Part shown: positions 44,028-59,490 of the stretch, piece by piece
Numbering within the stretch: the stretch's first letter is position 1
Layout: every line of letters begins with the position of its first letter
Assembly: GCF_014836875.1 (NCBI RefSeq)
Contig: NZ_JACSQC010000002.1
Coordinates: 62,001-126,000, forward strand
Source of the DNA: Arthrobacter pullicola
GTDB taxonomy: Bacteria > Actinomycetota > Actinomycetes > Actinomycetales > Micrococcaceae
DNA length: 64,000 bases
Reading direction: 5' to 3'
The notes under the pieces: model-generated
What the model was told of the DNA's origin: nothing
The model's input: the letters and a program-made list of their open reading frames with translations, nothing else
Database searches by the model: none
Program-made: the position numbers and the translations under genes

Positions 44028-44846
44028 TTAGCTCACGATGCCCGCCCGGCGCAGGGTCTGTTCTGCCTGCCGGAGGAGCGGGCCGTCGATCATTTCGCCG
44101 CGGAAGCTGAAGACCCCGCCCTGCCCCCGGGCCGCCGCAAGCAGGTCGCGGGCATATGCCTTCTCCTCATCCGAGGGGGCGTAGGCGGCCCGTACGGCGG
44201 CAACCTGTCCCGGATGAATGCAGGCCTTCGCCGCGAAACCCGACGCGGCGCCGTCGCGCGCTTCCGCTTCCAGGCCGGCGGTGTCAGCAATGTTCCCGTA
44301 GATGGCGTCGATCGCGCCCTTACCGAAAGCTCCCGCTGCCAGCAGCACCGTGGAACGGGCGTGGACGGCGACCCCGCGGTAACTGCTCTGCGTAGTCCGG
44401 CTGGATTCACCGCCCAGGGAAGCCAGCAGGTCTTCGGCACCCCACATCAGTGCCGCAACGTTCTTGGCCTGGGCGATTTCCGGGGCGCGGATCACGCCGA
44501 GCGCGGTTTCCAGCAGTGCAATGACCTGGTAGTGACGCAGGGCGTGGGCAATTTCCCCGGGGTCCTCGGCTTTGGCCGCCATCACGTGGCGGTATCCGGT
44601 GACTGCGAGCGCTTCCAGATCGGCCCGGAAGGAGGTGCTGTGCACCGGGTTGACACGGACGATGGTGCGCTCCGGATCAAGGTCGGACGCGGCCAGGTTT
44701 TCGCGGGCCTTTTCCTTGTCCTCCGGCGCGACGGCGTCTTCCAGGTCCAGGATCACGGCATCGGCCCGCTCGGCGGCCTTGGCAAACCGGTCCGGCCGGT
44801 CCGCGGGGCAGAACAGCAGGGCGGGTCCCATGGGGAAGGTGGTCAT
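44028..44846 (-). CDS. CitE-like CoA-ester lyase
   Basis: A 272-residue HpcH/HpaI aldolase/citrate lyase-beta TIM barrel. The start M-G-P-A-L-L-F-C-P-A-D-R-P-D-R, the V-I-L-D-L-E-D-A-V motif (metal and CoA site) and the C-terminal C-I-H-P-G-Q motif are present. In the syntenic M. tuberculosis locus the CitE protein Rv2498c cleaves (R)-HMG-CoA and (S)-citramalyl-CoA. By context this gene closes the leucine pathway to acetoacetate and acetyl-CoA. The ATG at 44846 has an AAGGAGC site. It is the last gene of the carboxylase operon. Confidence 0.88.
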   Translation of the reverse strand: MTTFPMGPALLFCPADRPDRFAKAAERADAVILDLEDAVAPEDKEKARENLAASDLDPERTIVRVNPVHSTSFRADLEALAVTGYRHVMAAKAEDPGEIAHALRHYQVIALLETALGVIRAPEIAQAKNVAALMWGAEDLLASLGGESSRTTQSSYRGVAVHARSTVLLAAGAFGKGAIDAIYGNIADTAGLEAEARDGAASGFAAKACIHPGQVAAVRAAYAPSDEEKAYARDLLAAARGQGGVFSFRGEMIDGPLLRQAEQTLRRAGIVS

Positions 44847-44933
44847 TTCGGGGTGCTCCTTACGCGGCTTCGACTTCCAAGGCTTCTCCAACTTACCGGT
44901 GCCTGCACCCGGGAAGTTAGCGGTGGATCCGGT

Positions 44934-45485
44934 TCAGCGTGTGTTCCGGGATTGTTGGCCGCCGGATTCCGTCCACATCAGCGCTGTCCGGGTAAAGGTG
45001 GCCACCACCGTTCCATCCTGGTTGTGCCCGGTGTGCTCCAGGGTCACAATCCCCTGTCCCGGGCGGGAGCCGGACATCCGTTTGGCGGCCACCCGGGTCT
45101 GCGAGTACAGGGTGTCCCCGTGGAAGAGCGGGTAGGGAAAGACGACGTCCGTCAGTCCCAGCTGGGCCACGAGGGTGCCCTGGGTGAGCTGCCCCACGGA
45201 TTGGCCGACCATCACGGCGAGAGTGAGCATCGAGTTCACCAGGCGCTGGCCGAAGGGCTGCCCGGCACTGTAGGCCGCGTCAAGGTGCAGGGGCTGGGAA
45301 TTCATGGTCAGGGTGCTGAACAGGACGTTGTCCGCTTCGGTGAGGGTCCGGCCGGGCCGGTGCGCGTACACCGTTCCGGTTTCGAGTTCCTCGTACCAGA
45401 GGCCGCGCTGGAGAACCACGCGCTCCTCCCCTTCGGGCTGGGCTGCCGGACCGGGATCCCCTGCCTGCCGCGCCGGCTCAGACAC
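44934..45485 (-). CDS. MaoC-family hydratase
   Basis: A 183-residue hot-dog-fold protein. The segment [22 protein letters not shown] matches the MaoC hydratase helix with the D-x4-H-type active site. The GTG at 45485 overlaps the last 8 bp of the CoA-transferase B gene. By context it hydrates 3-methylglutaconyl-CoA (or mesaconyl/itaconyl-CoA) to the CitE substrate. It replaces the crotonase (AtuC/LiuC-type) hydratase used in Proteobacteria. Confidence 0.87.
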
Positions 45486-46119
45486 CGAGAGCCACTTCCA
45501 GGGGCGCCCCGGTGGCGGCCACCACGTCCTCCACGGTGACTCCGGGTGCGGTTTCCAGCAGCACCAGCGACTCCGGTCCCACTTCAATCACGGCAAGGTC
45601 GGTGATGATCAGGTCCACGCAGCCCCGGCCGGTCAGCGGCAGGGAGCATTCGGAGACGATTTTCGGGGCGCCGCTGCGGTCCACGTGCTCCATCATGACG
45701 ATCACGCGTTTGGCGCCAAAGACCAGGTCCATGGCCCCGCCCATCCCCTTGACCATTTTTCCCGGGACCATCCAGTTGGCGAGGTCCCCGTTGGCAGCAA
45801 CCTCCATCGCGCCGAGCACGGCGACGTCCACGTGCCCGCCGCGGATCATGCCGAAGGACGCCGCGGAATCGAAGAAGGCCGCGCCCCGGTTGACGGTCAC
45901 CGTTTCCTTTCCGGCGTTAATCAGGTCCGGGTCCAGTGCGGACTCCTCCGGATACGGGCCGACGCCAAGAATCCCGTTTTCGGAATGCAGCACCACTTCC
46001 ACCCCCTCGGGGATGTAGTTGGGAATCAGCGTGGGCATGCCGATGCCCAGGTTCACGTACTGCCCGTTCCGAAGTTCCTGTGCCACCCGGGCTGCGAGTT
46101 CGTTGCGTGTCAGTGCCAT
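45478..46119 (-). CDS. 3-oxoacid CoA-transferase subunit B
   Basis: A 213-residue CoA-transferase family I beta subunit. The catalytic Glu47 lies in L-H-S-E-N-G-I-L-G, and the G-I-G-M-P-T and G-G-A-M-D-L motifs are present. With subunit A it moves CoA from succinyl-CoA to acetoacetate or a related acid. Its start shares one base with the subunit A stop. Substrate is inferred from the operon. Confidence 0.94.
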
Positions 46120-46913
46120 TACAGGCCTTTCCCGGCCGCGCCGCGTGAAGTGTCTGCTGTACGGGGTGCCGAAACCGTCTTCTTCTCGATCCGTTTCTCC
46201 CCCGGTCCCGTGTGGACCACGCGCTGGACGAAGATGCCCGGCACGTGGATCTCTCCGGGATCCAGCTCGCCTGCTTCGACCAGTTCCTCCACCTCGGCGA
46301 TCGTGACTTTGCCGGCCATCGCACAGAGCGGGTTGAAGTTCATGGCAGAGGCATGGAACACCAGGTTTCCGTGCCGGTCACCCTTCCAGGCATGAACCAG
46401 GGCAAAATCCGGGGTCAGGGACTCTTCCAGCACGTAGTCCCGGCCGTGGAAGGCGCGGACCTCCTTGGGTTCCGAGGCCAGCGCTACCCCGCCCTCGGCG
46501 TCGTACTTCTGCGGCAGTCCGCCTTCACTGACCTGGGTCCCGACGCCGGCGCTCGTGTAGAACGCCGGAATCCCGGCACCGCCGGCCCGCAGTTTCTCGG
46601 CCAGGGTCCCCTGCGGGGTGAGGACCACCTCCAGTTCGCCGGCCAGGTACTGCCGGGCGAATTCCTTGTTCTCACCCACGTAGGAGCTGACCGTGCGGCG
46701 GATCCGGTGATCGGCCAGCAGCAGGCCGAGCCCCCAGTCGTCCACGCCGCAGTTGTTGGACACCGTTTCCAGCCGGTCCGCGCCCTGGTCGTACAGGGCC
46801 TCAATCAGGGCCGCGGGAATGCCGCAGAGCCCGAATCCCCCCACGGCCAGGGACACGCCGCTGGGAATGTCGGCTACGGCCTCCGCCGGCGTCGCCACTG
46901 TCTTGTCAATCAT
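46119..46913 (-). CDS. 3-oxoacid CoA-transferase subunit A
   Basis: A 264-residue CoA-transferase family I alpha subunit. The oxyanion-hole segment [10 protein letters not shown] and the Y-T-x-A-G-V-G-T motif are present. The C-terminus is extended by ~20 residues beyond the usual end. It pairs with the overlapping subunit B gene and follows the acyl-CoA dehydrogenase. Confidence 0.94.
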
Positions 46914-46956
46914 GGAACCGTCCGTTCGTTAATCGCCGTTGACCAACTTCTCCGCT

Positions 46957-48120
46957 TCAGAGCCCCAACTCGCGGGCAATAAGCATCAACTGAACCTCGG
47001 AAGTGCCTTCGCCGATTTCGAGGATCTTCGAGTCGCGGTAATGCCGTGCCACCGGGAACTCGTTGATGAAACCGTAGCCGCCAAAGACCTGGGTGGCATC
47101 CCGTGCGTTGTCCATCGCGGCCTCTCCCGCGACCAGCTTAGCCATGGCCGCCTGCGACTTAAACGGTTTGCCGGCCAGCATCCGGGCCGCGGCGTCGTAG
47201 TAGGCAAGCCGGGCAGTGTGGGCCCGGGTCTGCATCCGCGCGATCTTGAAGGCGATCGACTGATTGCTCCCGATGGGTGCGCCGAAAGCGTGGCGTTCCG
47301 ACGCGTAGCGCAGCGCCTCGTCCACGCAGCCCTGTGCGGCACCGGTGGCCAGCGCCGCGATTGCGATCCGGCCCTCGTCCAGGATCTGCAGGAAGTTGGC
47401 GAATCCGCGGCCCTCGGCTCCCAGCAGGTTCTCCTGCGGCACCCGCACATTCTCGAGGGTGAGGGGATGCGTGTCCGAGGCGTTCCAGCCCACCTTGTTG
47501 TACGCCTTCTCCACCGTGAAGCCGGGAGTTCCGGACGGGACGATGATCGTGGAGATCTGCTTGCGCACGGTTCCGTCCGGCCCTTCGGAGGTTCCGGTGA
47601 CGGCGGTGACGGTGACCAGAGAGGTGATGTCCGTGCCGGAGTTGGTGATGAACTCCTTGCTGCCGTTGATCACCCACTCCCCGTCCTCGAGGCGGGCCGT
47701 GGTCTTGGTGCCGCCGGCGTCGGAGCCTGCCTCCCGTTCGGTGAGTCCGAAGCCTGCGAGCGCGGTGCCCTCAGCCAGCGCCGGCAGCCACTGCTGCTTT
47801 TGCTCCTCGGTGCCAAAGCGGTAGATCGGCATGGCGCCGAGGGAGACACCGGCTTCCAGGGTGATGGCCACGGACTGGTCCACCCGGGCCAGCTGTTCCA
47901 GGGCCAGGGCCAGGGCAAAGTAGTCGCCGCCCATACCGCCGTATTCTTCGGGGAACGGGAGGCCGAACAGGCCCATCTCCCCCATCTGCGCCACCACCTT
48001 GTAGGGGAAGCTGTGTTCCTCGTCGTGCCTGGCGGAAACCGGGGCAACCACCTCGTCGGCAAATTCCCGGACCGTGTCCGATAGAGCCTGGTGTTCCTCA
48101 CTGAGTTCAAAGTCCGGCAT
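46957..48120 (-). CDS. Acyl-CoA dehydrogenase (branched-chain type)
   Basis: A 387-residue FAD enzyme. F-G-L-T-E-R-E-A-G-S-D and the C-terminal QVFGGYGFINEFPVARHYRD motif are normal. A glutamate is present in I-G-E-G-T-S-E-V, the MCAD/SCAD base position, while classical isovaleryl-CoA dehydrogenases have Ala/Gly there and a base in another helix. By locus it should oxidise isovaleryl-CoA (M. tuberculosis FadE19 position), but 2-methylbutyryl- or isobutyryl-CoA are possible. It is in one operon with the carboxylase, 15 bp after its biotin subunit. Confidence 0.9.
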   Translation of the reverse strand: MPDFELSEEHQALSDTVREFADEVVAPVSARHDEEHSFPYKVVAQMGEMGLFGLPFPEEYGGMGGDYFALALALEQLARVDQSVAITLEAGVSLGAMPIYRFGTEEQKQQWLPALAEGTALAGFGLTEREAGSDAGGTKTTARLEDGEWVINGSKEFITNSGTDITSLVTVTAVTGTSEGPDGTVRKQISTIIVPSGTPGFTVEKAYNKVGWNASDTHPLTLENVRVPQENLLGAEGRGFANFLQILDEGRIAIAALATGAAQGCVDEALRYASERHAFGAPIGSNQSIAFKIARMQTRAHTARLAYYDAAARMLAGKPFKSQAAMAKLVAGEAAMDNARDATQVFGGYGFINEFPVARHYRDSKILEIGEGTSEVQLMLIARELGL

Positions 48121-48135
48121 GCCCTGCTCCTTCGG

Positions 48136-50226
48136 TTAGGTGTGCGGTTCCGCGGCCGGGTCCAGGCCCACCGGGGCTGGGGGCTGGGGTGGTGCAGCAG
48201 CGGGGGAAACCGTGGCCAGTACCTGCCCGGCTTTGACCAGGTCCCCGGGACGCAGGGTCATGGCCACGGTGCCGGCCACAGGCGCGGTGAGCTGATGTTC
48301 CATCTTCATGGCTTCCACGCTGAGCAGCGCCTGGCCTGCCTCAACGGTGTCCCCGTTCCCGACGGCGACGCTCACAACGGTGCCGGGCATCGGCGAGCGC
48401 AGGACGGGATCAGCGGCTCCTGCGGCCCGTTCGGCCGAAGCCAGGGACGCGCGCAGGCGTTCCCTGCGGTCCGGCAGCTCCAGGACCGCGGTAAAGCCGT
48501 TCCTGGAGGTCCAGAGCGCCTGACCGGGCCCGGACTGCGGGCCCGAGCCGGGGTTCGCTGCGGCACTGAACCGGAGGGAATGGACGACGCCGTCCAGCAC
48601 CAGCCGTGCCCGGCTCCCGTCCACGTGCAGGGCGGCGCCGCGTGCCCCTGTCCCGTCGATGCGCACTTCCGCTGCGTCAGGGGTGCCGGTGAGCTCCACC
48701 GTGTGCAGGGTGCCGCCCGCGGTCACGGCGACAGTCAGCGGCCGTGCTCCGCCGATGCGCCAGCCATCGGCCCGCTGCCACGGAGAACCGGCTGGCTGCC
48801 CGTGGTTCTGCAGCGCAGCGAGCCGGAACAGGGCGGCGGCAGCCAGTTCGACGTCGTCCGGTGCCTGGAAGTGCAGGTCCGGAAGCCGGCGCTCGATCAG
48901 CGTGGTGTCCAGGTTCCCCGCTTGGACATCCGGATCGGCGAGCAGCAGCCGCAGGTATTCGATGTTGGTGCCGATGCCCAGGATCACCGTTTCGGCGAGC
49001 GCCGCGTCCAGCCGGGCCAGCGCCTGCCGCCGGTCCGGCCCCCAGGCGATGACCTTGGCCAGCATCGGGTCGTAGCTGGCGGACACCCGCTGGCCTTCGA
49101 TCAGCCCGGAGTCGGTGCGCACCCCGTCCCCGGCAGCTTCGTGCAGGAGCTGCACCGTCCCGGCGGTGGGGAGGAATCCCTGGGCCGGGTCTTCGGCATA
49201 CACGCGGGCTTCCACGGCGTGGCCGGTCAGCCGGACATCCTCCTGGGTCAAACCGAGCTGCTCTCCGGCGGCGATGCGGACCTGCCATTCGACCAGGTCG
49301 ATACCGGTGACCATTTCGGTGACCGGGTGTTCCACCTGCAGCCGGGTGTTCATCTCCATAAAGAAGAACTCATCCGGGGTCTCTCCGGAGACCAGGAACT
49401 CCACGGTGCCAGCCCCGGTGTATTCCACCGAGCGGGCAGCCTCGCAGGCGGCCGCTCCGATCCGGCCGCGGGTGGCCTCATCGAGCAGGACCGACGGTGC
49501 TTCCTCAATGACCTTCTGGTGCCGCCGCTGCAGCGAACACTCGCGTTCGCCCAGATGGATCACGTTGCCGTGGGTGTCCGCGAGGACCTGCACCTCGATG
49601 TGGCGCGGGGTGGGCACCAGCCGTTCCAGGAAGAGGGTGTCATCGCCGAAGGCCGAGGCTGCTATCCGGCGGGCGGAGGCCAGGGCAGCCGGGAGCCCGC
49701 CGGGTGTGTTCACCGCCTGCATGCCCTTCCCGCCGCCGCCGGCCGAAGGTTTGATCAGCAGCGGATAGCCGACCCGCCCGGCGGCCGCGGTCAGGTCCGC
49801 GTCGGTGAGTCCGGGTTCGGCGACGCCGGGGATCACCGGGACGCCGTAGCCGGCCACATGGTTCTTGGACCGGATTTTGTCCCCCATGAGCTCCAGCGCT
49901 TTCACACCGGGACCGATGAAGGTAATCCCGTTCTCCTGCAGCAGGCGGGCAAAAGCGGAATTTTCGCTCAGGAAGCCGTAGCCCGGGTGCACGGCCTGCG
50001 CGCCGGAGAGCCGGCAGGCGGCCAGCACGGCGCCGGCGTCAAGGTAGCTCCGCCGCGGATCGGCCGGACCCAGCCGGATGGCTGTGTCAGCTTCGCGCAC
50101 GTGCCGGGCATCGGCGTCGTCGTCGCTGTAGACGGCAACGGTCCGCAGCCCCAGCCGCTTCAGCGTGCGGAGAATGCGGCAGGCGATTTCGCCGCGGTTG
50201 GCCACCAATACGGTTTCGAAAGTCAC
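48136..50226 (-). CDS. Acyl-CoA carboxylase biotin-carrying alpha subunit
   Basis: A 696-residue three-part subunit: biotin carboxylase ([11 protein letters not shown] start; ATP-grasp [19 protein letters not shown]), a linking domain, and a C-terminal biotinyl domain with E-A-M-K-M-E-H near residue 640. With the beta subunit it carboxylates 3-methylcrotonyl-CoA by context. The GTG at 50226 lies 4 bp after the beta-subunit stop. It corresponds to AccA1 (Rv2501c) of M. tuberculosis. Confidence 0.95.
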
Positions 50227-50230
50227 GGGG

Positions 50231-51835
50231 TCACATCCGGAAGAGGCCGAAGGAGGTTGCGGGCAGCGGAGCATTGGCGCAGACGTCCAGGGCCAGGCCC
50301 AGGACGGTGCGGGTGTCCTGCGGGTCGATGATCCCGTCGTCCCAGAGCCGTGCCGTGGAGTAGTAGGGGCTGCCCTGGGCCTCATAGTCCTTCCGGATCG
50401 GTTCGCGGAAGGCTTCCTCCTCCTCCGCGCTCCATTCCCCGCCCCGGGATTCCACTGAGTCCCGGCGCACCGTCGCCAGCACGGCGGAGGCCTGGTTTCC
50501 GCCCATCACGGAGATCCGGGCGGCCGGCCACATCCACAGGAACCGCGGCGAGTAGGCCCGTCCACACATCGAATAGTTCCCCGCACCGAAGGACCCGCCG
50601 ACCACCACCGTCAGTTTCGGAACCCGGCAGGTAGCGACGGCGGTGACCATCTTGGCGCCGTGGCGGGCGATTCCCCCGGCCTCGTAGTCCCGGCCGACCA
50701 TAAAGCCGGAGATGTTCTGCAGGAAGATCAGCGGGATGCCGCGCTGGTCGCAGAGTTCGATGAAGTGTGCGCCTTTCTGCGCGGATTCGCTGAACAGGAC
50801 TCCGTTGTTCGCGACGATTCCCACCCGGTGCCCGTGCAGCCGGGCGAAGCCGGTCACCAGGGTGGTTCCGAATTCCTTTTTGAACTCGTGGAATTCGCTG
50901 CCGTCCGTGAGGCGGGCGATGATCTCCCGCACGTCGTAGGGGGTTTGCAGGTCAGCGGGCACGGCGCCGTAGAGGCCTGCCGGATCGACGGCGGGCTCCA
51001 CCGAGGGCTCCGGGTTCCAGGCCCGTTCCGGGGCCGGGAAGGTCTCAGCGATGTTGCGCACGATTTCCAGGGCGTGGGCGTCGTTTTCGGCCAGATGGTC
51101 CGTCACCCCTGAAATCCGGGAGTGCAGTTCCCCGCCGCCGAGCTCCTCCGCGGTGACGACTTCCCCGATCGCGGCCTTCACCAGGGGCGGACCGCCCAGG
51201 AAAATGGTGCCCTGATTCCGGACGATGACGGTTTCATCACTCATGGCCGGGACATAGGCACCGCCTGCGGTGCAGGAACCCAGGACGGCGGCGATCTGCG
51301 GGATTTTCGCGGCGGACATGCGGGCCTGGTTGTAGAAGATCCGGCCGAAGTGCTCCCGGTCCGGGAACACCTCGTCCTGCAGGGGCAGGAAGGCGCCGCC
51401 GGAATCCACCAGGTAAATACACGGCAGCCGGTTCTCCAGTGCAATTTCCTGCGCCCGAAGGTGCTTTTTTACCGTCAGCGGGTAGTAGGTTCCGCCTTTG
51501 ACCGTGGCGTCGTTGGACAGCACCATCACGTGCCTGCCGTGGACCAGCCCGATTCCGGCGATCAGCCCTGCGCCCGGGCATTCGTCCCCGTACATGCCGT
51601 TGGCTGCCAGCGGTGCGATCTCCAGGAACGGGCTGCCGTCGTCGAGCAGCATTTCCACCCGTTCCCGGGGAAGCAGTTTCCCCCGCCCGGTGTGACGTTC
51701 ACGCGACCGGGCCGGACCACCCTGGGCGGTTTCGGCGAGCAGTTTGCGCAGTTCCCCGGCGAGGATCCGCTGGGCCGAATCATTGGCTGCGTAGGACGCC
51801 GAGGCGGCATCCACACCGGTAACAAGGGTCTCCAT
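50231..51835 (-). CDS. Acyl-CoA carboxylase carboxyltransferase beta subunit
   Basis: A 534-residue crotonase-fold carboxyltransferase. Two tandem domains carry the oxyanion [11 protein letters not shown] (N-half) and the [14 protein letters not shown] (C-half), as in methylcrotonyl-CoA carboxylase beta subunits. The ATG has an AAAGGAAG site. It is the first gene of the minus-strand operon and is divergent from the TetR gene across the double operator. Confidence 0.95.
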
Positions 51836-51885
51836 CGACTTCCTTTGGTTTCACCGCGTGGGAACCTGCGTCAGTGCCGACGCCG

Positions 51886-51901
51886 GTTAATGACCACTAA
51901 C
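51886..51901. promoter_or_regulatory. TetR operator, left copy
   Basis: GTTAATGACCACTAAC, a 16-bp palindrome with only transition-type mismatches (GTTA-R-TG-R-Y-CA-Y-TAAC pattern), between the divergent carboxylase and TetR genes. Confidence 0.75.
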
Positions 51902-51910
51902 CCAAATTAG

Positions 51911-51926
51911 GTTAGTGGCTATTAAC
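51911..51926. promoter_or_regulatory. TetR operator, right copy
   Basis: GTTAGTGGCTATTAAC, the inverted form of the left site; the centres are 25 bp apart. Together the two sites form a 41-bp inverted repeat (51886-51926). Confidence 0.75.
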
Positions 51927-51981
51927 TGACCTGTCCACCACAATGGAGGAGTTGCCCATACAGGACCGCGGAAAGGCAGGC

Positions 51982-52596
51982 ATGGAAGTCACCAAGACCA
52001 CCCCGCGCACCACAACCGGCCGCAGCGCGGCCAAGGCGTCGCGCCGTGCCGCCATGCTCGACGCCGCTGCGTCGCTGTTCGCGGAGCGCGGCTACAACGG
52101 TGTCTCAATCGAAGAACTCGGCGCGGCCGCCGGGGTCAGCGGACCGGCCGTGTACCGCCACTTCAGCGGTAAGCCGGCGGTGCTGGCCGCCCTGCTGATC
52201 GGCGTGAGCAAGGATCTGCTGGAGGGCGGGACCGCCGTCGTCGCCGAATCGGGCACAGCCGAGGACGCCCTGACCGGACTGATCGAATTCCAGGTGGACT
52301 TCGCTCTGCGCCAGTCCAACGTGATCCGGGTCCAGGACCGGGACCTGGCCAGCCTGCCGGAAGAGGACGAGCGCACGGTCCGCCAGCTCCAGCGCCAGTA
52401 CATCGAGGTGTGGGTGGACGCCATTTCCGCTCTGCACCCCGACTCCGGCCTGCCGCTGCTTCGCCACCGCGCCCAGGCCGTGTTCGGCCTGATCAACTCC
52501 ACATCCCACACCCTGACCAGCAAAACCACCGCCAGGGAGACAGTGCGGCTCCGTGCCCTGCTGGAACGAATGGCGTGGGCGGCACTGAATGCCTAG
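51982..52596 (+). CDS. TetR-family transcriptional regulator
   Basis: A 204-residue regulator. The N-terminal HTH is clear (AAASLFAERGYNGVSIEELGAAAGVSGPAVYRHFSGK). The C-terminal domain carries the ligand pocket. The ATG at 51982 follows an AAAGGCAGG ribosome site; an ATG at 51943 would add 13 residues. It is divergent from the acyl-CoA carboxylase operon and corresponds in position to M. tuberculosis Rv2506, so it likely represses this operon in the absence of a branched acyl-CoA or related ligand (inference). Confidence 0.92.
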   Translation: MEVTKTTPRTTTGRSAAKASRRAAMLDAAASLFAERGYNGVSIEELGAAAGVSGPAVYRHFSGKPAVLAALLIGVSKDLLEGGTAVVAESGTAEDALTGLIEFQVDFALRQSNVIRVQDRDLASLPEEDERTVRQLQRQYIEVWVDAISALHPDSGLPLLRHRAQAVFGLINSTSHTLTSKTTARETVRLRALLERMAWAALNA

Positions 52597-53101
52597 TACG
52601 CTGGACAAAACACCCCGAGCAGAAAGACCTGCCGTGATTGAGCTTCGTGCCGTTGTTCCAGCCGATCTGGATGAATTCTTCAACCATCAGCTGGACCCGG
52701 GCGCCAACCATATGGCCGCCTTCGCCGCCAAAAATCCGTCAGACCGGGGCGTCTTCGACCTCCACTGGCAGCAAATCCTCAGCGATCCTTCGATTACCGT
52801 CCGCACCATCGTGGCCGACGGCGACGTAGTGGGATCCATCCTGGCCTACCGCGAGGGCGACGTCCCGGAGATCAGCTACTGGATCGACCGCTCCCGCTGG
52901 GGACAGGGCATTACGACGGCGGCCGTGGGCCTCTTCCTCGAAGAATTCCCTGAGCGTCCGGTCCGGGCACGCGCCGTCGCAGACAACGTCAGCTCCATCC
53001 GCATCCTGGAACGCTACGGTTTCAAGATGATCGGCGAGGAGCGCAGCTTTGCCAACGCCCGCGGTGCCGTGGTCCGGGAACTGGAACTCGAGCTGGCCTA
53101 G
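52589..53101 (+). CDS. GNAT acetyltransferase
   Basis: A 170-residue GNAT protein of the RimJ-like group. The S-Y-W-I-D-R-S-R-W-G-Q-G-I-T-T-A-A motif binds acetyl-CoA and N-V-S-S-I-R-I-L-E-R-Y-G-F closes the fold. The ATG at 52589 overlaps the TetR stop by 8 bp; a GTG at 52634 is an alternative start that begins at the conserved core (V-I-E-L-R). Substrate unknown. Confidence 0.88.
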   Translation: MPSTLDKTPRAERPAVIELRAVVPADLDEFFNHQLDPGANHMAAFAAKNPSDRGVFDLHWQQILSDPSITVRTIVADGDVVGSILAYREGDVPEISYWIDRSRWGQGITTAAVGLFLEEFPERPVRARAVADNVSSIRILERYGFKMIGEERSFANARGAVVRELELELA

Positions 53102-53123
53102 GCCTGCCGGAAGCACTGCGGAC

Positions 53124-53160
53124 AAGGCCCGTTCCCACGGTTAGCGTGGGAACGGGCCTT
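53124..53160. terminator. Bidirectional terminator between GNAT and bkdC
   Basis: AAGGCCCGTTCCCACG and its exact complement around a 5-nt loop (16-bp stem), followed by TTCCGCTTT on the plus strand; sits between convergent genes. Confidence 0.9.
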
Positions 53161-53178
53161 CCGCTTTCCGGGGTCCGG

Positions 53179-54510
53179 CTAGGTCATCGCCAGCACCATG
53201 GCCGGTTCGGCCAGCACGTCTGCGATGTCGCGCAGGAACAGTGAGGCTTCTGCCCCGTCCACCAGCCGGTGGTCGAAGGACAGGCTGAGCGTCGTCACCT
53301 GCCGCAGCGCAATGCCACCCTCATACTCCCAGGGCTGGCTCCGTACCGCGCCCAGGGCCAGGATGGCGGCCTCCCCCGGATTCAGGATCGGAGTTCCGGC
53401 GTCCACCCCAAACACGCCGACATTGGAGATGGAGACCGTGCCGCCGGAGAGCGCGGCCGGAGGGGTCCGGCCATCCCGGGCGGTACCGACAAGATCTGAA
53501 ATCGCCAGCGCCAGTTCGCGCAGACCCAGGTCCTGTGCGTCCTTGATATTGGGAACCAGCAGGCCCCGGGGCGTCGCCGCCGCGATGCCGAGGTTCACAT
53601 AGCGGTAACGGATGATCTCCCTGGCCTCCCCATCCCAGCGGGCGTTCAGGCCCGGATGCCGCTGGAGTGCCAGGCAGACTGCCTTGGCGGCCAGGACCAG
53701 CGGAGTCAGCCGGACACCGTCAAATTCCCGGCGGGACTTCAGTTTCGTCAACAGGTTCATTGACCCCGTAACGTCCAAGGTGAGGAAAACCGTGGCATGC
53801 GGAGCCGTAAAGGCACTGCTAACCATCGCCGCCGCCGTGTGTTTCCGGATTCCGGAAACCGGGATACGTTCCTCGCGGGCTTGCCCCAAATGCGGAGCGT
53901 CTTCGACGACGGCCTGCCCGGGGGCGGCCGGTCTCTCCGTGCTGTCCGTGCTGCTGACCCGCTGCACGGCAGCTTCCACATCTGAGCGCAGGATCCTGCC
54001 GTCCGGTCCGGTCCCCGTCACGAGGGCCAGGTCGATTCCGAGGTCACGGGCCAGTTTCCGTACGGGCGGGGTGGAGCGCGGCCGTTCCAAGAGCGGTTGG
54101 ACGGCTGAGGCCGGTTGGACGGCTAAGGCCGGCTGGACGGCTGAATCCGGTTGTACCTTCACCAGTCCCGGGCGGGGTTTTCGGGCCGGGCGTCCGGCCG
54201 ATTCCGGCTCGGCACCGTATCCCACCAGGGTCGGCTGCCGGCGCGGCGCCTTGGCGGCGGGCTCCTCCGGGTCCGGGATGTCGAAGGAGATGATGGTCGA
54301 CCCCACCTCCACGACGGTTCCCGGCAGCTCGTGCAGGCGGGCCACCACACCGGCAAAGGGAGACGGCAGCTCCACCACGGCCTTAGCGGTTTCCACTTCC
54401 GCGATGACCTGGTTCAGCGCCACCGCCTGTCCCTCCGCCACCCGCCAGCTGAGAATCTCGGATTCGGTCAGGCCCTCCCCCAGGTCCGGCAGCCGGAATT
54501 CGCGGATCAT
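53179..54510 (-). CDS. bkdC: Branched-chain 2-oxoacid dehydrogenase E2
   Basis: The 443-residue dihydrolipoyl acyltransferase core. The lipoyl domain has Lys43 in V-E-T-A-K-A, then a long linker with three 6-residue S/L-A-V-Q-P-A repeats, a peripheral-subunit-binding domain (~150-185) and the catalytic domain with D-H-R-L-V-D-G (His414). The ATG overlaps the bkdB stop as ATGA. Corresponds to BkdC (Rv2495c). Confidence 0.95.
   Translation of the reverse strand: MIREFRLPDLGEGLTESEILSWRVAEGQAVALNQVIAEVETAKAVVELPSPFAGVVARLHELPGTVVEVGSTIISFDIPDPEEPAAKAPRRQPTLVGYGAEPESAGRPARKPRPGLVKVQPDSAVQPALAVQPASAVQPLLERPRSTPPVRKLARDLGIDLALVTGTGPDGRILRSDVEAAVQRVSSTDSTERPAAPGQAVVEDAPHLGQAREERIPVSGIRKHTAAAMVSSAFTAPHATVFLTLDVTGSMNLLTKLKSRREFDGVRLTPLVLAAKAVCLALQRHPGLNARWDGEAREIIRYRYVNLGIAAATPRGLLVPNIKDAQDLGLRELALAISDLVGTARDGRTPPAALSGGTVSISNVGVFGVDAGTPILNPGEAAILALGAVRSQPWEYEGGIALRQVTTLSLSFDHRLVDGAEASLFLRDIADVLAEPAMVLAMT
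54095..54148 (-). repeat. bkdC: 18-bp tandem repeat, three copies, in the bkdC linker
   Basis: Units beginning GGTTGGACGGCT, GGTTGGACGGCT and GGCTGGACGGCT have an 18-bp period and encode A-V-Q-P hexapeptides in the flexible lipoyl-domain linker. Confidence 0.9.
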
Positions 54511-55529
54511 CCCTGCACTCCTTCCAGGACTGCCGTCCGGTCCAGGGAATTGGGCCGGCGCATTACCCGGTCCACTCCGTCCAGGATCCGGTCCAGATCC
54601 GGAAGATGGTGTTTCTCCAGCCGTGCCGGCGGGTATGGAATGTCGAACCCGGTCACGCGGACCGGTGCATGTTCCAGGTAGTCGAAGCAGCGCTCGGTGA
54701 TGCTTGCGGCGATCTCCGCGCCCAGCCCGCCGGACTGGGCTGCCTCGTGGGTGACCACCAGCCGGCCGGTCTTCCGCACGGAGGCCTCCACGGCGTCGTA
54801 GTCTATGGGCGCCAGCGAGCGCAGGTCGATCACTTCCACGGAGACGCCGTCATCCTGCGCCGCGGCGGCCGCGTCCAGGGCGGTCATCACCAGCGGACCG
54901 TAGGCCACCAGTGTCACGTCGGTGCCCGGCGCAGCTATCCTGGCGGCGCCCATCGGGAGGGCACCGTCCAGCGTCAGGTCCACCTCTGCCTTGGTGTGAT
55001 AGCGGCGCTTGGGTTCGAAGTAAAGGACTGGATCATCGCACTCAACCGCCTGGCGGATCATGGTGTAGGCGTCCTGCGGGTTCGAAACGCTGATTACCCG
55101 CAGCCCGGACGTGTGCGTGAAATAGGCTTCGGGAGACTCCGAATGGTGCTCCGGGGATCCGATGCCGCCGCCGAAGGGCACCCGGATGGTCAGCGGCAGT
55201 TTCACCGCTCCACGCGTGCGGTAGTGCATCTTGGCCACCTGCGAAACAATCTGGTCGAACGCCGGATAGATGAATCCATCAAACTGGATTTCCACCACCG
55301 GCCGATACCCGCGGTACGCGAGCCCGACGGCGGTCCCCATAATCCCGGACTCCGCCAGGGGGGTGTCGATCACCCGGCGGGGTCCGAATTCGGCCTGCAG
55401 GCCGTCAGTGATCCGGAAGACGCCCCCCAGCCTGCCGATGTCCTCGCCCATCAGGACAACTTTTGGATCCCCCGCCAGGGCATCGCGCAGGCCGGCCGTG
55501 ATGGCGCGGCCAAAGGTCATGCTGGTCAT
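54507..55529 (-). CDS. bkdB: Branched-chain 2-oxoacid dehydrogenase E1 beta
   Basis: The 340-residue E1 beta subunit. The TPP-binding GEDIGRLGG-type N-terminus, R-G-Y-R-P-V-V-E-I-Q-F-D-G-F and V-I-D-L-R-S-L-A-P-I-D motifs are normal. The ATG at 55529 overlaps the bkdA stop (ATGA) and has an AAGGAAG site. With E1 alpha it decarboxylates branched 2-oxoacids from Leu, Ile and Val. Confidence 0.95.
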   Translation of the reverse strand: MTSMTFGRAITAGLRDALAGDPKVVLMGEDIGRLGGVFRITDGLQAEFGPRRVIDTPLAESGIMGTAVGLAYRGYRPVVEIQFDGFIYPAFDQIVSQVAKMHYRTRGAVKLPLTIRVPFGGGIGSPEHHSESPEAYFTHTSGLRVISVSNPQDAYTMIRQAVECDDPVLYFEPKRRYHTKAEVDLTLDGALPMGAARIAAPGTDVTLVAYGPLVMTALDAAAAAQDDGVSVEVIDLRSLAPIDYDAVEASVRKTGRLVVTHEAAQSGGLGAEIAASITERCFDYLEHAPVRVTGFDIPYPPARLEKHHLPDLDRILDGVDRVMRRPNSLDRTAVLEGVQG

Positions 55530-56677
55530 CGCAGGCTTCCTTCCGTGACGCTCCCCATCATGGCGAGGTATTGCCGGTAGTGCTCCTGCTGGCGGTCCAG
55601 CCAACTGTTAGGTGCCGAGTAGACGTGCGCAAAAACGTCCATGGGCGCCGGCTCGGGCATCCCCGTGCAGGCGTCCCGAAGCTCCCGGGCCAGCGCATCG
55701 GCGTCGCGGTCCACGGCCGCCCGGAAGGCGCCGTCGAACTCCCCCTCGGATTCCAGCAGCGCGGCGATCCGGCTGATCGGATCCTTCGCCTGCCAATCCA
55801 GAAGCTCGGCCGGGTTCCGGTAGCGGGTCGGATCGTCCGCGGTGGTGTGCGGCCCCATCCGGTAGGTGACCGCCTCGATGAAGGTGGGTCCTCCCCCGCT
55901 GCGCGCCCGGTCCAGCGCTTCCCGGGTGGCAGCCAGCGTAGCCAGGACGTCATTGCCGTCCACCCGGATGGACGGAATGCCGAAGCCCGGTGCCCGGTTG
56001 GCGACCGGGATCTGCGCCTGCAGTCCCACGGGTTCGGAGATGGCCCATTGGTTGTTCTGGCAGAAGAAGATCACCGGTGCCTGGAAGCTCGCAGCGAAAA
56101 CCATGGCCTCGTTGACATCTCCCTGGCTGGTGGCGCCGTCGCCGAAGTAGCTGATGGCGGCGTCGTCCAGCCCGTCCTGGCGGATGCCCATGGCGTAGCC
56201 GGTGGCGTGCAGGGCCTGCGCACCAATGATCACTTGGGTGGGTGCCATGTTCACGGAAAACGGATCCCAGCCGGCAGCGGCATTGCCGCGCCAGACCCGC
56301 ATCAGATCTTCGAAGCCCACGCCGCGGACGAACGCCACAGCGTTCTCGCGGTAGCTGCTGAAGACAAAGTCGGATGGCCGCAGCGCCCGGGCCGAGCCTA
56401 TCTGGGCTGCTTCCTGCCCGAGGAGCGGAGGCCAGAGGCCCAGTTCACCCTGCCGCTGCAGGGATGTGGCCTCGGTGTCGATCCGTCTGACCAGGACCAT
56501 ATCCCGGTACAGGCCGCGGAGCGCCCCGGCATCAATGTCCTCGACCCAGCGGTCGTAGAGGGCGTCACGGATGCGGGAGCCATCGGGGCGGATGAGCTGG
56601 AGGTACGGGTCGTGCGGTTCCGTCCCGGTGTTTTCGGGATGGTCCGCCGGGATATGCAGGGACACTTTGATACGCAT
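55526..56677 (-). CDS. bkdA: Branched-chain 2-oxoacid dehydrogenase E1 alpha
   Basis: The 383-residue E1 alpha subunit. The TPP motif GDGATSQGDVNEA...N-N-Q is intact and the phosphorylation-loop region (Y-R-M-G-P-H-T-T-A-D-D-P-T-R-Y) is conserved. The ATG at 56677 is directly preceded by GGAAGG with no spacing, so the GTG at 56665 (12 nt further) may be the real start. It heads the bkdABC operon and is divergent from the Lrp gene. Confidence 0.95.
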   Translation of the reverse strand: MRIKVSLHIPADHPENTGTEPHDPYLQLIRPDGSRIRDALYDRWVEDIDAGALRGLYRDMVLVRRIDTEATSLQRQGELGLWPPLLGQEAAQIGSARALRPSDFVFSSYRENAVAFVRGVGFEDLMRVWRGNAAAGWDPFSVNMAPTQVIIGAQALHATGYAMGIRQDGLDDAAISYFGDGATSQGDVNEAMVFAASFQAPVIFFCQNNQWAISEPVGLQAQIPVANRAPGFGIPSIRVDGNDVLATLAATREALDRARSGGGPTFIEAVTYRMGPHTTADDPTRYRNPAELLDWQAKDPISRIAALLESEGEFDGAFRAAVDRDADALARELRDACTGMPEPAPMDVFAHVYSAPNSWLDRQQEHYRQYLAMMGSVTEGSLR

Positions 56678-56745
56678 CCTTCCGTGGTGGAACCCCGGGG
56701 GTGTTGGGGTCCAAACCTGTGGCCGGGCGGCGTTGCCCAGATAAG

Positions 56746-56761
56746 TGTGACCCTACTCACA
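56746..56761. promoter_or_regulatory. Perfect CRP-type operator between bkdA and the Lrp gene
   Basis: TGTGACCCTACTCACA matches TGTGA-N6-TCACA exactly, extended to GTGTGA/TCACAC (56745-56762). Its centre is ~77 nt upstream of bkdA and ~92 nt upstream of the Lrp gene. Confidence 0.75.
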
Positions 56762-56793
56762 CCGGGCATGCCGTACAACTGTGCGCGCTCGGA

Positions 56794-56845
56794 TTGCGCA
56801 CTCTGCCCTGCCGGGAGGGATTTGCCCGTGCTAGCGTTGCGCACT
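56794..56845 (+). promoter_or_regulatory. Repeated TTGCGCACT words before the Lrp gene
   Basis: TTGCGCACT occurs at 56794-56802 and 56837-56845 (43 bp apart), and GTGCGC at ~56781 forms an inverted repeat with the first copy (GTGCGC-N9-GCGCAC). The second copy touches the start codon. Candidate Lrp/AsnC sites. Confidence 0.5.
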
Positions 56846-57322
56846 ATGCAGATTTTGGACGGCACCGACTTCCGGGTCCTGCGGGCCATGGCCACCGATC
56901 CGCGGCGGACTGTCGTGGCCCTGGCGGGCCGGCTCGGCATCTCCCGCAACACCGTTCAGGCACGGCTGTCCCGGATGGAAACCAAGGGTGCCTTCCTTTC
57001 CTTCGAGCGGCGCATCAATCCCGTGGCGCTGGGCTACCCCCTGATGGCTTTTGTCCACGTCCATGTCCAGCAGCAGCGGCTCGCTGAGATCACCGCGGAG
57101 CTCTCCGCCATCCCGGAAGTCGTGGAAGCCCACGGCCTCACCGGGGCGGCGGACATCCTGCTGCGGACGGTCGCCGTCGACGCCGAGGACCTGTTCCGGG
57201 TCAACAAGGCCATCCTGGCGGTGCCCGGCGTCGAGCGCTCCGACACCACCTTGGCGATGGGCGAGCTGATCCCCTACCGGGTGTCCCCGCTCCTTGACCG
57301 CGGGCCGGCCGGTACGGACTGA
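56846..57322 (+). CDS. Lrp/AsnC-family transcriptional regulator
   Basis: A 158-residue feast/famine regulator: N-terminal HTH (VVALAGRLGISRNTVQARLSRM) and C-terminal RAM domain (V-x-E-A-H-G-L-T-G-A-A-D-I-L-L). The ATG at 56846 starts the HTH domain at the expected length. An extended -10-like TGCTAGCGT lies 8 nt upstream. Divergence from bkdABC suggests it senses a branched amino acid and controls bkd, as BkdR does in other bacteria (inference). Confidence 0.92.
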   Translation: MQILDGTDFRVLRAMATDPRRTVVALAGRLGISRNTVQARLSRMETKGAFLSFERRINPVALGYPLMAFVHVHVQQQRLAEITAELSAIPEVVEAHGLTGAADILLRTVAVDAEDLFRVNKAILAVPGVERSDTTLAMGELIPYRVSPLLDRGPAGTD

Positions 57323-57420: not shown

Positions 57421-59043
57421 TTAGTGGTCCACAGCCTTTTCCGCGCCGACGCCGGTCAGCGAACGGATTTCCATCTCTGCCTGCTTTTCCGGCGACTCGT
57501 TGTCCTTACTCGTGATCGTGCCCAGCCAGCCGAGGAAGAAGGCCAGCGGGATCGAGACGATACCCGGGTTGTTCAGCGGGAAGAAGGAGAAGTCGGCACC
57601 GGAGATCATCGAGGTTTCCGCACCGGACATCACCGGCGAGAAGATGATCAGGCCGATGGCCGAGCCCAGGCCGCCGTACATGCTCCAGAGTGCGCCACGG
57701 GTGTTGAAGCGGCGCCAGTAGAGCGAGTAAAGGATGGTCGGCAGGTTCGCACTGGCCGCGACAGCGAAGGCCAGGGCCACCAGGAAGGCGACGTTCTGCC
57801 CCTGGGCGCCGATGCCGCCGAGAATCGAGACGACGCCGATGACCAGCACAGTGCGGCGGGCCACCTTCACTTCGCTCTCGGAATCAACCTTGCCCTTGCG
57901 CACCACGTTCGTGTAGATGTCATGGGCGAAGGAAGCTGCGGCAGTGATGGTCAGGCCTGCCACGACCGCCAGGATGGTGGCGAACGCGACGGCCGATATG
58001 AGTCCCAGCAGCACCGGACCGCCCAGCGCGAAGGCCAGCAGCGGTGCAGCCGAGTTCACTCCACCCGGTGCGGAGGTGATGGTTTCCCGTTCGATCATGG
58101 CGGCGGCGCCGTAGCCGAGCACCAGGGTGAACAGGTAGAAGAGACCGATCAGCCAGATGGCCCACACAACGGAGCGCCGGGCTTCCTTGGCGGTCGGCAC
58201 CGTGTAGAAGCGCATCAGCACGTGCGGCAGGGCCGCGGTGCCGAGGACCAGGGCCAGGCCGAGCGAGACGAAGTCCAGCTTGGAGGTCTCGGACTTGCCG
58301 TACTGCAGTCCCGGGTCCAGGATCGCCGGGTTACCGGACATCTCGACGGCGGCACCGAGGAGCTCGGAGAGGTTGAAGCCGTTCAGTGCAAGTACCCAGA
58401 CCGTCATTACTGCGGTGCCGGCGATCAGCAGGCAGGCCTTGATGATCTGCACCCAGGTGGTGCCCTTCATACCGCCAACCAGTACGTAGATGATCATCAG
58501 CGCGCCAACGATCGTGATCACCAGGGACTGGCCGACCTTGGAGTCGATGCCCATCAGCAGGGACACGAGTCCGCCGGCGCCGGCCATCTGCGCCAGGAGA
58601 TAGAAGAAGCAGACTGCCAGCGTGGTGATGGCGGCGGCGATGCGCACCGGACGCTGCTTGAGCCGGAAGGAAAGCACATCGGCCATGGTGAACTTGCCGG
58701 TGTTGCGGAGCATTTCAGCTACCAGCAGCAGGGCTACGAGCCAGGCGACAAGGAAGCCGATCGAGTACAGGAACCCGTCATAGCCGTTGATGGCGATGGC
58801 GCCGACAATACCCAGGAAGGATGCCGCCGACAGGTAGTCGCCGGCAATGGCCGTTCCGTTCTGCGGTCCGGTGAAGGACCGGCCTGCGGCGTAATAGTCG
58901 GCCGCGGTCTTGTTGTTGCGGCTGGCACGGAGCACCACAACGAGCGTGACGGCGACGAACAGGCCGAAGATCAGCATGTTCAGCCAGCCGCTCTCCTGCA
59001 CCTTCTCAGCGGTGACAGCAGCGGAGATGTTCAGCGTGTTCAT
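57421..59043 (-). CDS. Cation/acetate symporter, ActP/MctC type
   Basis: A 540-residue sodium:solute symporter with about 13 spans. A-A-D-Y-Y-A-A-G-R, G-D-Y-L-S-A-A-S-F-L-G-I and L-P-H-V-L-M-R-F-Y-T-V-P are the monocarboxylate (acetate/pyruvate/propionate) symporter motifs. Its ATG overlaps the DUF485 stop (ATGA), the standard YjcH-ActP pairing. It would import acetate or related acids. Confidence 0.93.
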   Translation of the reverse strand: MNTLNISAAVTAEKVQESGWLNMLIFGLFVAVTLVVVLRASRNNKTAADYYAAGRSFTGPQNGTAIAGDYLSAASFLGIVGAIAINGYDGFLYSIGFLVAWLVALLLVAEMLRNTGKFTMADVLSFRLKQRPVRIAAAITTLAVCFFYLLAQMAGAGGLVSLLMGIDSKVGQSLVITIVGALMIIYVLVGGMKGTTWVQIIKACLLIAGTAVMTVWVLALNGFNLSELLGAAVEMSGNPAILDPGLQYGKSETSKLDFVSLGLALVLGTAALPHVLMRFYTVPTAKEARRSVVWAIWLIGLFYLFTLVLGYGAAAMIERETITSAPGGVNSAAPLLAFALGGPVLLGLISAVAFATILAVVAGLTITAAASFAHDIYTNVVRKGKVDSESEVKVARRTVLVIGVVSILGGIGAQGQNVAFLVALAFAVAASANLPTILYSLYWRRFNTRGALWSMYGGLGSAIGLIIFSPVMSGAETSMISGADFSFFPLNNPGIVSIPLAFFLGWLGTITSKDNESPEKQAEMEIRSLTGVGAEKAVDH

Positions 59044-59411
59044 TTGGTCTCCTCCGGACGGGTTACGCCCTGGGCCTCAAGTTCCCCGCGCAGTTCCGCG
59101 GCGATCGGGTCCATCCTGCGGTTGGCGTAGCTGACGTACCACATGGTGATGCCGAACGTGCTGACGAACTGCAGCAGCCCCAGGATGATGCCGATGTTGA
59201 CGTTGCCGAACACGGGCGTTGACATGAATTCATGGGCGTAGTCAGCAAGCAGGACGTAGGCGAAATACCAGATCAGGAAGACTGCGGCCATCGGAAAGAT
59301 GAAGCTGCGCTGGCGTTTGCGCAGCTCCTGGAACCGAGGCGACCGCTGGACTTCCTGGAAGTCGACCGGTGCCGCGCTTCCGGGGTGTGATTGTGGCTGG
59401 TGTTCAGCCAT
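59040..59411 (-). CDS. DUF485 membrane protein (YjcH-like)
   Basis: A 123-residue protein with two spans (~48-68 and 82-104): R-K-R-Q-R-S-F-I-F-P...W-Y-F-A-Y-V-L-L-A-D-Y-A and Y-V-S-Y-A-N-R-R-M-D-P. The ATG at 59411 has a GGAGGAG site; an ATG at 59486 is upstream. It is the usual small partner of ActP-type symporters. Confidence 0.92.
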   Translation of the reverse strand: MAEHQPQSHPGSAAPVDFQEVQRSPRFQELRKRQRSFIFPMAAVFLIWYFAYVLLADYAHEFMSTPVFGNVNIGIILGLLQFVSTFGITMWYVSYANRRMDPIAAELRGELEAQGVTRPEETK

Positions 59412-59490
59412 CTCTCCTCCTTGGGTTGGGCACTTGCGTACGGCATCCGGGTCCGGGATCCATGGCGGATCCCCAACACCACGCACCGTC

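Follow-up and report, generated by a model that had tools for sequence, protein, structure and literature searches.

A putative mycobacterial-type leucine catabolic island with a separate branched-chain dehydrogenase operon in Arthrobacter pullicola

Results

The island and its proposed pathway

The window analysed here (the whole stretch of 64,000 nucleotides from Arthrobacter pullicola contig NZ_JACSQC010000002.1) carries at positions 44028-57322 a gene island that is very probably the Arthrobacter version of the mycobacterial module for leucine (isovalerate) catabolism via (R)-3-hydroxy-3-methylglutaryl-CoA ((R)-HMG-CoA). An earlier note made from the sequence had read the island as leucine-type, which is supported by a CitE-like lyase of the Rv2498c type, a carboxyltransferase resembling AccD1 of Mycobacterium tuberculosis and two perfect operators of the TetR-family repressor BkaR. 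The open reading frame (ORF) list and family scans revealed the minus-strand order citE-maoC-scoB-scoA-fadE-accA1-accD1, followed by plus-strand bkaR and a GNAT gene and then by minus-strand genes for E2, E1β and E1α of a predicted branched-chain 2-oxo acid dehydrogenase (bkd), and finally by plus-strand lrp (Table 1). Every component listed in the earlier note (E1α, E1β, E2, acyl-CoA dehydrogenase, the carboxylase pair, MaoC, CitE, both CoA-transferase subunits and TetR) was found in its place, and the Lrp/AsnC-family gene that ends the stretch (~56846-57322, plus strand) lies within the span of that note, which did not name it. The same list and scans revealed no recognisable gene for an E3, an aminotransferase or a thiolase within the island. 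Overlaps of one to four bases at scoB/scoA, E2/E1β and E1β/E1α (the last with a start chosen by eye) fit an organization in operons.

Gene content, order, operator sites and catalytic residues are read directly from the DNA, and from them we infer each substrate, the (R) stereochemistry, BkaR binding and the role of Lrp as bkd regulator. The Bkd E1/E2 components, with E3 supplied from elsewhere, would convert the leucine keto acid to isovaleryl-CoA, and FadE would turn this into 3-methylcrotonyl-CoA. Carboxylation by AccA1/AccD1 would give 3-methylglutaconyl-CoA, hydration by MaoC (R)-HMG-CoA, and cleavage by the CitE-like lyase acetyl-CoA and acetoacetate, onto which ScoAB would transfer CoA. 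BkaR would repress the accD1-to-citE operon via the two operators, 25 bp apart, and the bkd genes would form a separate operon, divergent from the Lrp-family gene.

Conservation was assessed in 38 stretches around citE taken from other genomes, 28 of the same genus and 10 of other genera. The whole citE-to-lrp order is kept in 27 of the 28 same-genus stretches, so it is not a matter of chance; the remaining one (G022) is broken after citE. Gene order is more varied in the 10 other-genus stretches.

CitE is of the Rv2498c type

Among solved structures the best match of the window CitE was 6aq4 (276 bits). The next different protein was CLYBL (116 bits), followed by the citrate-lyase-named chain 1sgj (113 bits), acyl-CoA lyases and 3qll, which we take to be RipC (104 bits), and malyl-CoA lyases (at most 84 bits); the assignments as citrate lyase or malyl-CoA lyase were dropped on these scores. 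In a tree of 22 proteins, the window CitE, Rv2498c and rows from Nocardia, Tsukamurella and other actinobacteria formed a clade of 18 with support 97/97; in this tree, from which citrate and malyl-CoA lyases of known function were absent, 8 of the 19 inner branches are open and two rows are long-branched. The Rhizobium, Natrinema and Antarctobacter proteins and the genome's own paralogue fell outside this clade. The nearest named relatives (86-88% identity) belong to Arthrobacter gandavensis SR10, Arthrobacter sp. Edens01 and A. koreensis.

The M. tuberculosis protein in 6aq4 is Rv2498c (PMC6689899), and 146 of 268 aligned residues are identical in the window CitE. The magnesium and substrate residues of Rv2498c are R64, E112, M133, G135, A136, E137 and D138 (PMC6689899), and all seven are identical in the window. 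Among the 37 readable loci of the 38 relatives (L046 was lost at extraction), M133 is Ala in one and the other six residues never vary.

The carboxylase and acyl-CoA dehydrogenase

AccD1 is identical to M. tuberculosis AccD1 (4q0g) at 382 of 512 residues. Among its solved matches, β subunits of 3-methylcrotonyl-CoA carboxylase (MCC) rank near the top; a chain named propionyl-CoA carboxylase β (9tps) also stands high, and other propionyl-CoA carboxylases far lower. A 16-residue motif specific to MCC carboxyltransferases has been published, and mycobacterial AccD1-AccA1 is a demonstrated MCC acting in leucine breakdown (PMC4347857). The window AccD1 matches this motif at 15 of 16 residues, the single change being R to L. 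Across 110 aligned AccD1 rows (the window plus 109 loci, with some genomes represented twice and L072 lacking coverage of the motif), 17 match at all 16 residues, 29 at 15, 58 at 14 and five at 13. FadE matched 7szv best (661 bits), an entry named merely acyl-CoA dehydrogenase, and isovaleryl-CoA is inferred as its substrate from gene context.

BkaR and its candidate operators

The divergent TetR that occupies the corresponding position in Nocardia farcinica, a species listed among those holding bkaR (PMC3920632), is 48% identical to the window TetR protein. BkaR recognizes a 16-bp core, GTTA(N)T(N4)A(N)TAAC, present in two copies in the bkaR promoter of every species tested there (PMC3920632). 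Exactly two perfect copies occur in the window, both in the gap between bkaR and accD1. On the N. farcinica counterpart and these operators, the TetR gene is predicted to be bkaR. The whole genome holds four sites (reversed-pattern control, 0), and the pattern was found in all 22 genus genomes searched, with 1-4 sites each (controls, 0-2). A perfect site between accD1 and bkaR is present in 27 of the 28 same-genus stretches, the G022 stretch ending before that gap. Upstream of accD1 at 110 loci (accD1 identity at least 60%; the set overlaps with the same-genus stretches and counts some genomes twice), 87 have a perfect copy, eight differ from it by one mismatch and 15 by two or more; at a distance of 25-26 bp there is usually a second copy carrying no more than one mismatch.

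Perfect operators were found upstream of E1α at none of 35 loci, with one locus at a single mismatch, and upstream of scoA at none of 81. A BkaR operator upstream of scoA in the window was rejected: the best site (46928) has two mismatches, and chance alone would give the window about two sites of this quality. A degenerate site similar to it recurs in part of the genus.

Two further sites, C8:217179 and C13:197756, were set aside as BkaR targets since they belong to a separate sub-pattern, GTTACT-N4-AGTAAC, present in 21 of the 22 genus genomes searched. The former (L041) lies by a short-chain dehydrogenase-like ORF and the latter (L042) 42 bp before a thiolase gene. They are likelier the sites of another regulator, possibly of another regulon devoted to fatty-acid breakdown.

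The MaoC hydratase

An Asp and a His form the catalytic pair of (R)-hydratases. The window MaoC carries Asn where 1q6w, 4ffu and PaaZ have Asp, with His five residues on, a layout that matches the second domain of mesaconyl-CoA hydratase 8hgn and of 4e3e. Asn stands at this position in all 38 aligned rows (the window counted) and also in MaoCs of Nocardia, Tsukamurella, Rhodococcus, Citricoccus and Rhizobium; the Antarctobacter MaoC, longer and unaligned there, is an exception. These residues suggest a methyl-branched substrate that carries a carboxylate, 3-methylglutaconyl-CoA for example, and itaconyl-CoA would fit equally. A structure model (mean predicted local distance difference test score 69.8, below 50 at the Asn stretch) indicated a MaoC-type hot-dog fold and nothing beyond it, and is no basis for the substrate proposals.

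The bkd operon and its Lrp neighbour

The divergent lrp adjoins the E1α gene in all 32 relatives' stretches that show E1α. Between the two genes of the window lies a perfect palindrome of the form TGTGA-N6-TCACA. The exact form occurs in 29 of 33 rows, namely the window, all 27 same-genus stretches and L074, one of five from other genera; it is absent from the gap in L067, L068, L071 and L076. Because four of the five other-genus rows lack it, the palindrome is mainly a feature of the genus. The whole genome has two perfect sites (control, 0), and sites with at most one mismatch are just mildly above chance in the window. TGTGA-N6-TCACA is the consensus of CRP/GlxR proteins, so the palindrome could be bound by Lrp or by a CRP-type protein. 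Inspection by eye places it across a possible −10 element of the bkd promoter, a spot at which the promoter scan reported nothing. The other genomic site, C7:152533 (L179), lies between ORFs that by eye resemble a peptide transporter and an ABC substrate-binding protein.

In M. smegmatis, bkdABC is cotranscribed with upstream genes in the BkaR operon (PMC3920632). Neither bkd nor lrp was found in 22.8 kb around citE of N. farcinica, and the linkage thus varies in the wider group.

Co-occurrence of the module genes and the pathway end

An order survey of 198 genomes found close CitE in 65 and close AccD1 (E up to 1e-190) in 61, all 61 having both. Close AccD1 occurred in none of the 133 genomes without close CitE, and four genomes (G100, G152, G169 and G205) had close CitE alone. 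Three weaker CitE matches (1e-31 to 1e-34) and three AccD1 matches at ~1e-152 were left out of these counts. A model for HMG-CoA lyase (HMGL) scored above cut-off in 39 of the 198 genomes, with no anticorrelation between CitE and HMGL (15/65 versus 24/133, Fisher p 0.45).

The best solved matches of ScoA are succinyl-CoA:3-ketoacid CoA-transferases. The scoAB pair is flanked by maoC and fadE (or accA1) at 50 of 80 named loci, several of the remaining 30 stretches being cut short. A Tsukamurella replicon shows TetR-accD1-accA1-fadE-maoC-citE, then an AMP-binding gene and an acetoacetate-CoA ligase gene, with no ScoAB within the stretch. The position of this ligase gene, second after citE, agrees with acetoacetate as the end product and supports its activation as the role of ScoAB.

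Alternative readings

Several observations weigh against the leucine assignment. On the closest curated models, those of itaconate degradation, CitE (RipC, 143 bits; cut-off 375) and MaoC (RipB/Ich itaconyl-CoA hydratase, 149 bits; cut-off 340) both score far under the cut-off. Near the CitE pocket, V181 and D184 of Rv2498c are replaced by Ile and Asn, and V181 contacts the ligand methyl group (PMC6689899). V181I is shared by all 27 readable same-genus rows, and position 184 is Asn in 26 of them and Ser in one. BkaR scores just under the cut-off of its SACE_7040-family model (243.5 versus 250 bits). On plasmids of Citricoccus and Rhodococcus, CitE of the same clade and a MaoC occur together with no MCC genes alongside, so membership of the clade alone is no proof of a leucine role. 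The three survey genomes with weaker AccD1 (~1e-152) have no close CitE. The genome also encodes, at C7:686 kb, an HMGL homologue (190 bits; curated cut-off 246) that could be a second HMG-CoA lyase. Finally, E1α scores above cut-off on a pyruvate-dehydrogenase model, and pyruvate dehydrogenases lead its solved matches, the α subunit of branched-chain dehydrogenase coming next.

It is possible, and we hold it tentatively, that the island serves leucine plus itaconate, with MaoC hydrating itaconyl-CoA, CitE cleaving (S)-citramalyl-CoA and ScoAB or another transferase loading CoA. Itaconate degradation by the same genes had been raised in the earlier note; the enzymes speaking for it are CitE, in whose pocket the metal and substrate residues of Rv2498c are kept, and MaoC. 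Both are distant relatives of RipC and RipB of the RipABC (Ict-Ich-Ccl) system. Against itaconate use, a PF13336-type CoA-transferase, the family that RipA presumably carries, was not found above cut-off in the genome, the sole match being scoB, below cut-off. In its support, a plasmid of Citricoccus pairs a CitE of the same clade with a dicarboxylate transporter; Rv2498c is a lyase for both substrates, with impaired growth of its mutant on either (PMC6689899); and a 2026 review assigns itaconate CoA-transferase activity to Rv2503c and itaconyl-CoA hydratase activity to Rv2499c (PMC13307414), a statement that, however, could not be traced in the main text of its cited source. Also against itaconate use, the island has no recognised dicarboxylate transporter gene, in contrast to the TRAP-CaiB-MaoC-CitE arrangement of the Citricoccus plasmid, and the only perfect BkaR-like operators of the window sit at accD1/bkaR, a regulation that points to leucine.

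The Citricoccus plasmid (NZ_CP039425, L173 5050-11837) has an IclR-cupin-CaiB CoA transferase-TRAP dicarboxylate transporter group by MaoC-CitE, without MCC. Its CitE is 54% identical to that of the window and lies within the Rv2498c clade. The cluster looks like a dedicated, stand-alone version for degradation of a dicarboxylate (itaconate- or mesaconate-like).

The E1α matches would also suit a pyruvate or acetoin dehydrogenase that is a mere neighbour of the leucine operon, which we regard as unlikely. E1β finds the 2-oxo acid dehydrogenase β subunit 1um9 and the 2-oxoisovalerate dehydrogenase β subunit first and pyruvate dehydrogenase β after them. An AceE pyruvate dehydrogenase is encoded elsewhere in the genome, above cut-off even though a contig end cuts the gene, and the heteromeric E1 is thus free for branched-chain keto acids. 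The Lrp-bkd neighbourhood conserved across relatives likewise speaks against a pyruvate dehydrogenase, and the mycobacterial homologues, first annotated pdhABC, are reported as part of a branched-chain keto-acid dehydrogenase (BCKDH; PMC3920632).

It is likewise unlikely that the HMGL-family protein at C7:686 kb accounts for most HMG-CoA cleavage, with CitE acting on another acid: the 190 bits of that protein and the 15 of 61 module carriers with HMGL above cut-off favour this, but the protein falls under the curated cut-off, no leucine genes were recognised around it (its neighbours being a CaiB-type CoA-transferase gene and, by eye, an IclR-like gene), and the other 46 carriers have no HMGL above cut-off.

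Comparison with known systems

The synteny with M. tuberculosis Rv2495c-Rv2506 asserted in the earlier note holds for part of the island. The row accD1-accA1-fadE-maoC-citE next to a TetR gene is the same in M. tuberculosis Rv2495c-Rv2506 and M. smegmatis MSMEG_4710-4718, and the mycobacterial BkaR regulon shares the 16-bp operator twice in the gap, an Rv2498c-type CitE and the MCC motif. The synteny fails at scoAB, which in the window lies inside the main operon between fadE and maoC without a BkaR site of its own, whereas M. tuberculosis scoA-scoB lies elsewhere in the cluster with such a site. It fails again at bkdABC, which is joined to the BkaR operon in M. smegmatis but in the window lies beyond bkaR-GNAT, separate and divergent from lrp, without a perfect BkaR operator. 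Further differences from mycobacteria are the lack of fadD35 in the island (the search covered the island) and the GNAT gene behind bkaR. A divergent Lrp-family gene is also known from Pseudomonas, where BkdR stands by its bkd operon as in the window. What the island very probably encodes is ordinary, well-conserved leucine catabolism in rearranged form, with the first complex by a different regulator and the CoA-transferase genes inside the main operon.

The earlier note had contrasted the MaoC/CitE pair with the crotonase/HMG-CoA lyase of Proteobacteria, which is too broad because plasmids of Rhizobium phaseoli carry isovaleryl-CoA dehydrogenase, MCC, MaoC and CitE genes together. On NZ_CP013538 (L178 6965-12876), genes for isovaleryl-CoA dehydrogenase, MCC β, MCC α, MaoC and CitE stand in a row, and each of the 12 plasmid records listed shows the same five annotated kinds. 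Of 880 matching records, 126 reach a coverage of 80% or more of the cluster, a figure that counts coverage rather than the presence of MaoC and CitE. This plasmid-borne alphaproteobacterial cluster resembles the island in having the same kinds of enzyme encoded side by side in a single orientation, a MaoC with the shared Asn-x-Gln-x-Leu-His, and a carboxyltransferase 67% identical to that of the window, with QAEVFPDRDHFGAIF at the MCC motif. It differs in that the dehydrogenase gene comes first, in that CitE is just 38% identical to that of the window and lies on a long branch outside the Rv2498c clade, and in the lack of a BkaR homologue or perfect BkaR operator in the 24.9 kb stretch. Genes for BCKDH E1α, an acyl-CoA dehydrogenase and a thiolase lie in its vicinity.

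When reported for M. tuberculosis in 2019, the (R)-stereospecific leucine route was called unprecedented in nature (PMC6689899). Among the matches listed by a literature search, mostly outside subscription journals, neither the Arthrobacter module nor the MaoC-CitE cluster of Rhizobium was the subject of a paper; the placing of bkd by lrp, the Asn-type MaoC and the rhizobial counterpart were not seen in the literature found. We put at about even the chance that MCC-MaoC-CitE, with its Asn-type MaoC, is a general alternative, (R)-HMG-CoA-forming route across Micrococcales and Mycobacteriales, assembled independently on alphaproteobacterial plasmids, and that the Arthrobacter BCKDH moved from BkaR to Lrp control. 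If the leucine assignment is true, the (R)-stereospecific route works in environmental Arthrobacter, where its stereochemistry, MaoC step and itaconate side activity could be approached without a pathogen, and the module would offer a natural comparison of joined and split regulation of the first enzyme.

Table 1. Genes and candidate operators of the island (window positions)
Feature	Position	Strand	Basis or remark
citE, Rv2498c-type β-hydroxyacyl-CoA lyase, predicted (R)-HMG-CoA lyase	44028..44891	-	alternative in-frame ATG ~44846
maoC, hot-dog hydratase, predicted 3-methylglutaconyl-CoA hydratase	44934..45485, start approximate	-	MaoC_dehydratas PF01575 above cut-off
scoB, 3-oxoacid CoA-transferase subunit B	45478..46119	-	TIGR02428 above cut-off
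scoA, 3-oxoacid CoA-transferase subunit A	46119..46913	-	TIGR02429 above cut-off
fadE, acyl-CoA dehydrogenase, predicted isovaleryl-CoA dehydrogenase	46957..48120	-	Pfam acyl-CoA dehydrogenase domains above cut-off
accA1, biotin carboxylase and biotin carrier, MCC α	48136..50226, start by eye	-	BT_MCC_alpha PF21139 and Biotin_lipoyl above cut-off
accD1, carboxyltransferase, MCC β	50231..51835	-	closest solved structure M. tuberculosis AccD1 4q0g
candidate BkaR operator 1, GTTAATGACCACTAAC	51886..51901		perfect fit to GTTA(N)T(N4)A(N)TAAC
candidate BkaR operator 2, GTTAGTGGCTATTAAC	51911..51926		perfect fit; 25 bp from operator 1
bkaR (predicted), TetR-family repressor	51943..52596, start possibly later	+	SACE_7040-family model
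GNAT acetyltransferase	52589..53101	+	PF13302 above cut-off
bkd E2, dihydrolipoyl acyltransferase	53179..54510	-	2-oxo acid dehydrogenase E2 families, all under cut-off
bkd E1β	54507..55529, start by eye	-	solved-structure matches
bkd E1α	55526..56677	-	TIGR03181 above cut-off
palindrome TGTGA-CCCTAC-TCACA (TGTGACCCTACTCACA), candidate operator in the E1α/lrp gap	56746..56761		perfect palindrome
lrp, Lrp/AsnC-family regulator, divergent from bkd operon	56846..57322	+	AsnC/Lrp families, all under cut-off

Neighbouring genes and minor observations

In G022 (C5:97305-121981; L048 ~2.8-18.8 kb), accD1 lies ~24.7 kb from citE, compared with ~5.3 kb in G005. About 19 kb of extra DNA behind citE, with ORFs resembling an MFS efflux protein, a fused FAD-monooxygenase/methylisocitrate lyase and a nitrilase, make this a natural split of the operon. 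The citE of L072 (G013) runs out of frame near its end, from either a real lesion or a sequencing error.

At L083 7921-10238 (own genome, C7), a CaiB-type CoA-transferase gene is followed by that of the 190-bit HMG-CoA-lyase-like protein, with an IclR-like regulator gene by eye, a putative acid degradation pair.

Promoter and terminator scans gave nothing useful. Behind lrp, a gene for an MctC-type monocarboxylate transporter above the curated cut-off and a small ORF (window 57421-59486, minus strand) are kept in many relatives, and the transporter could import isovalerate or keto acids.

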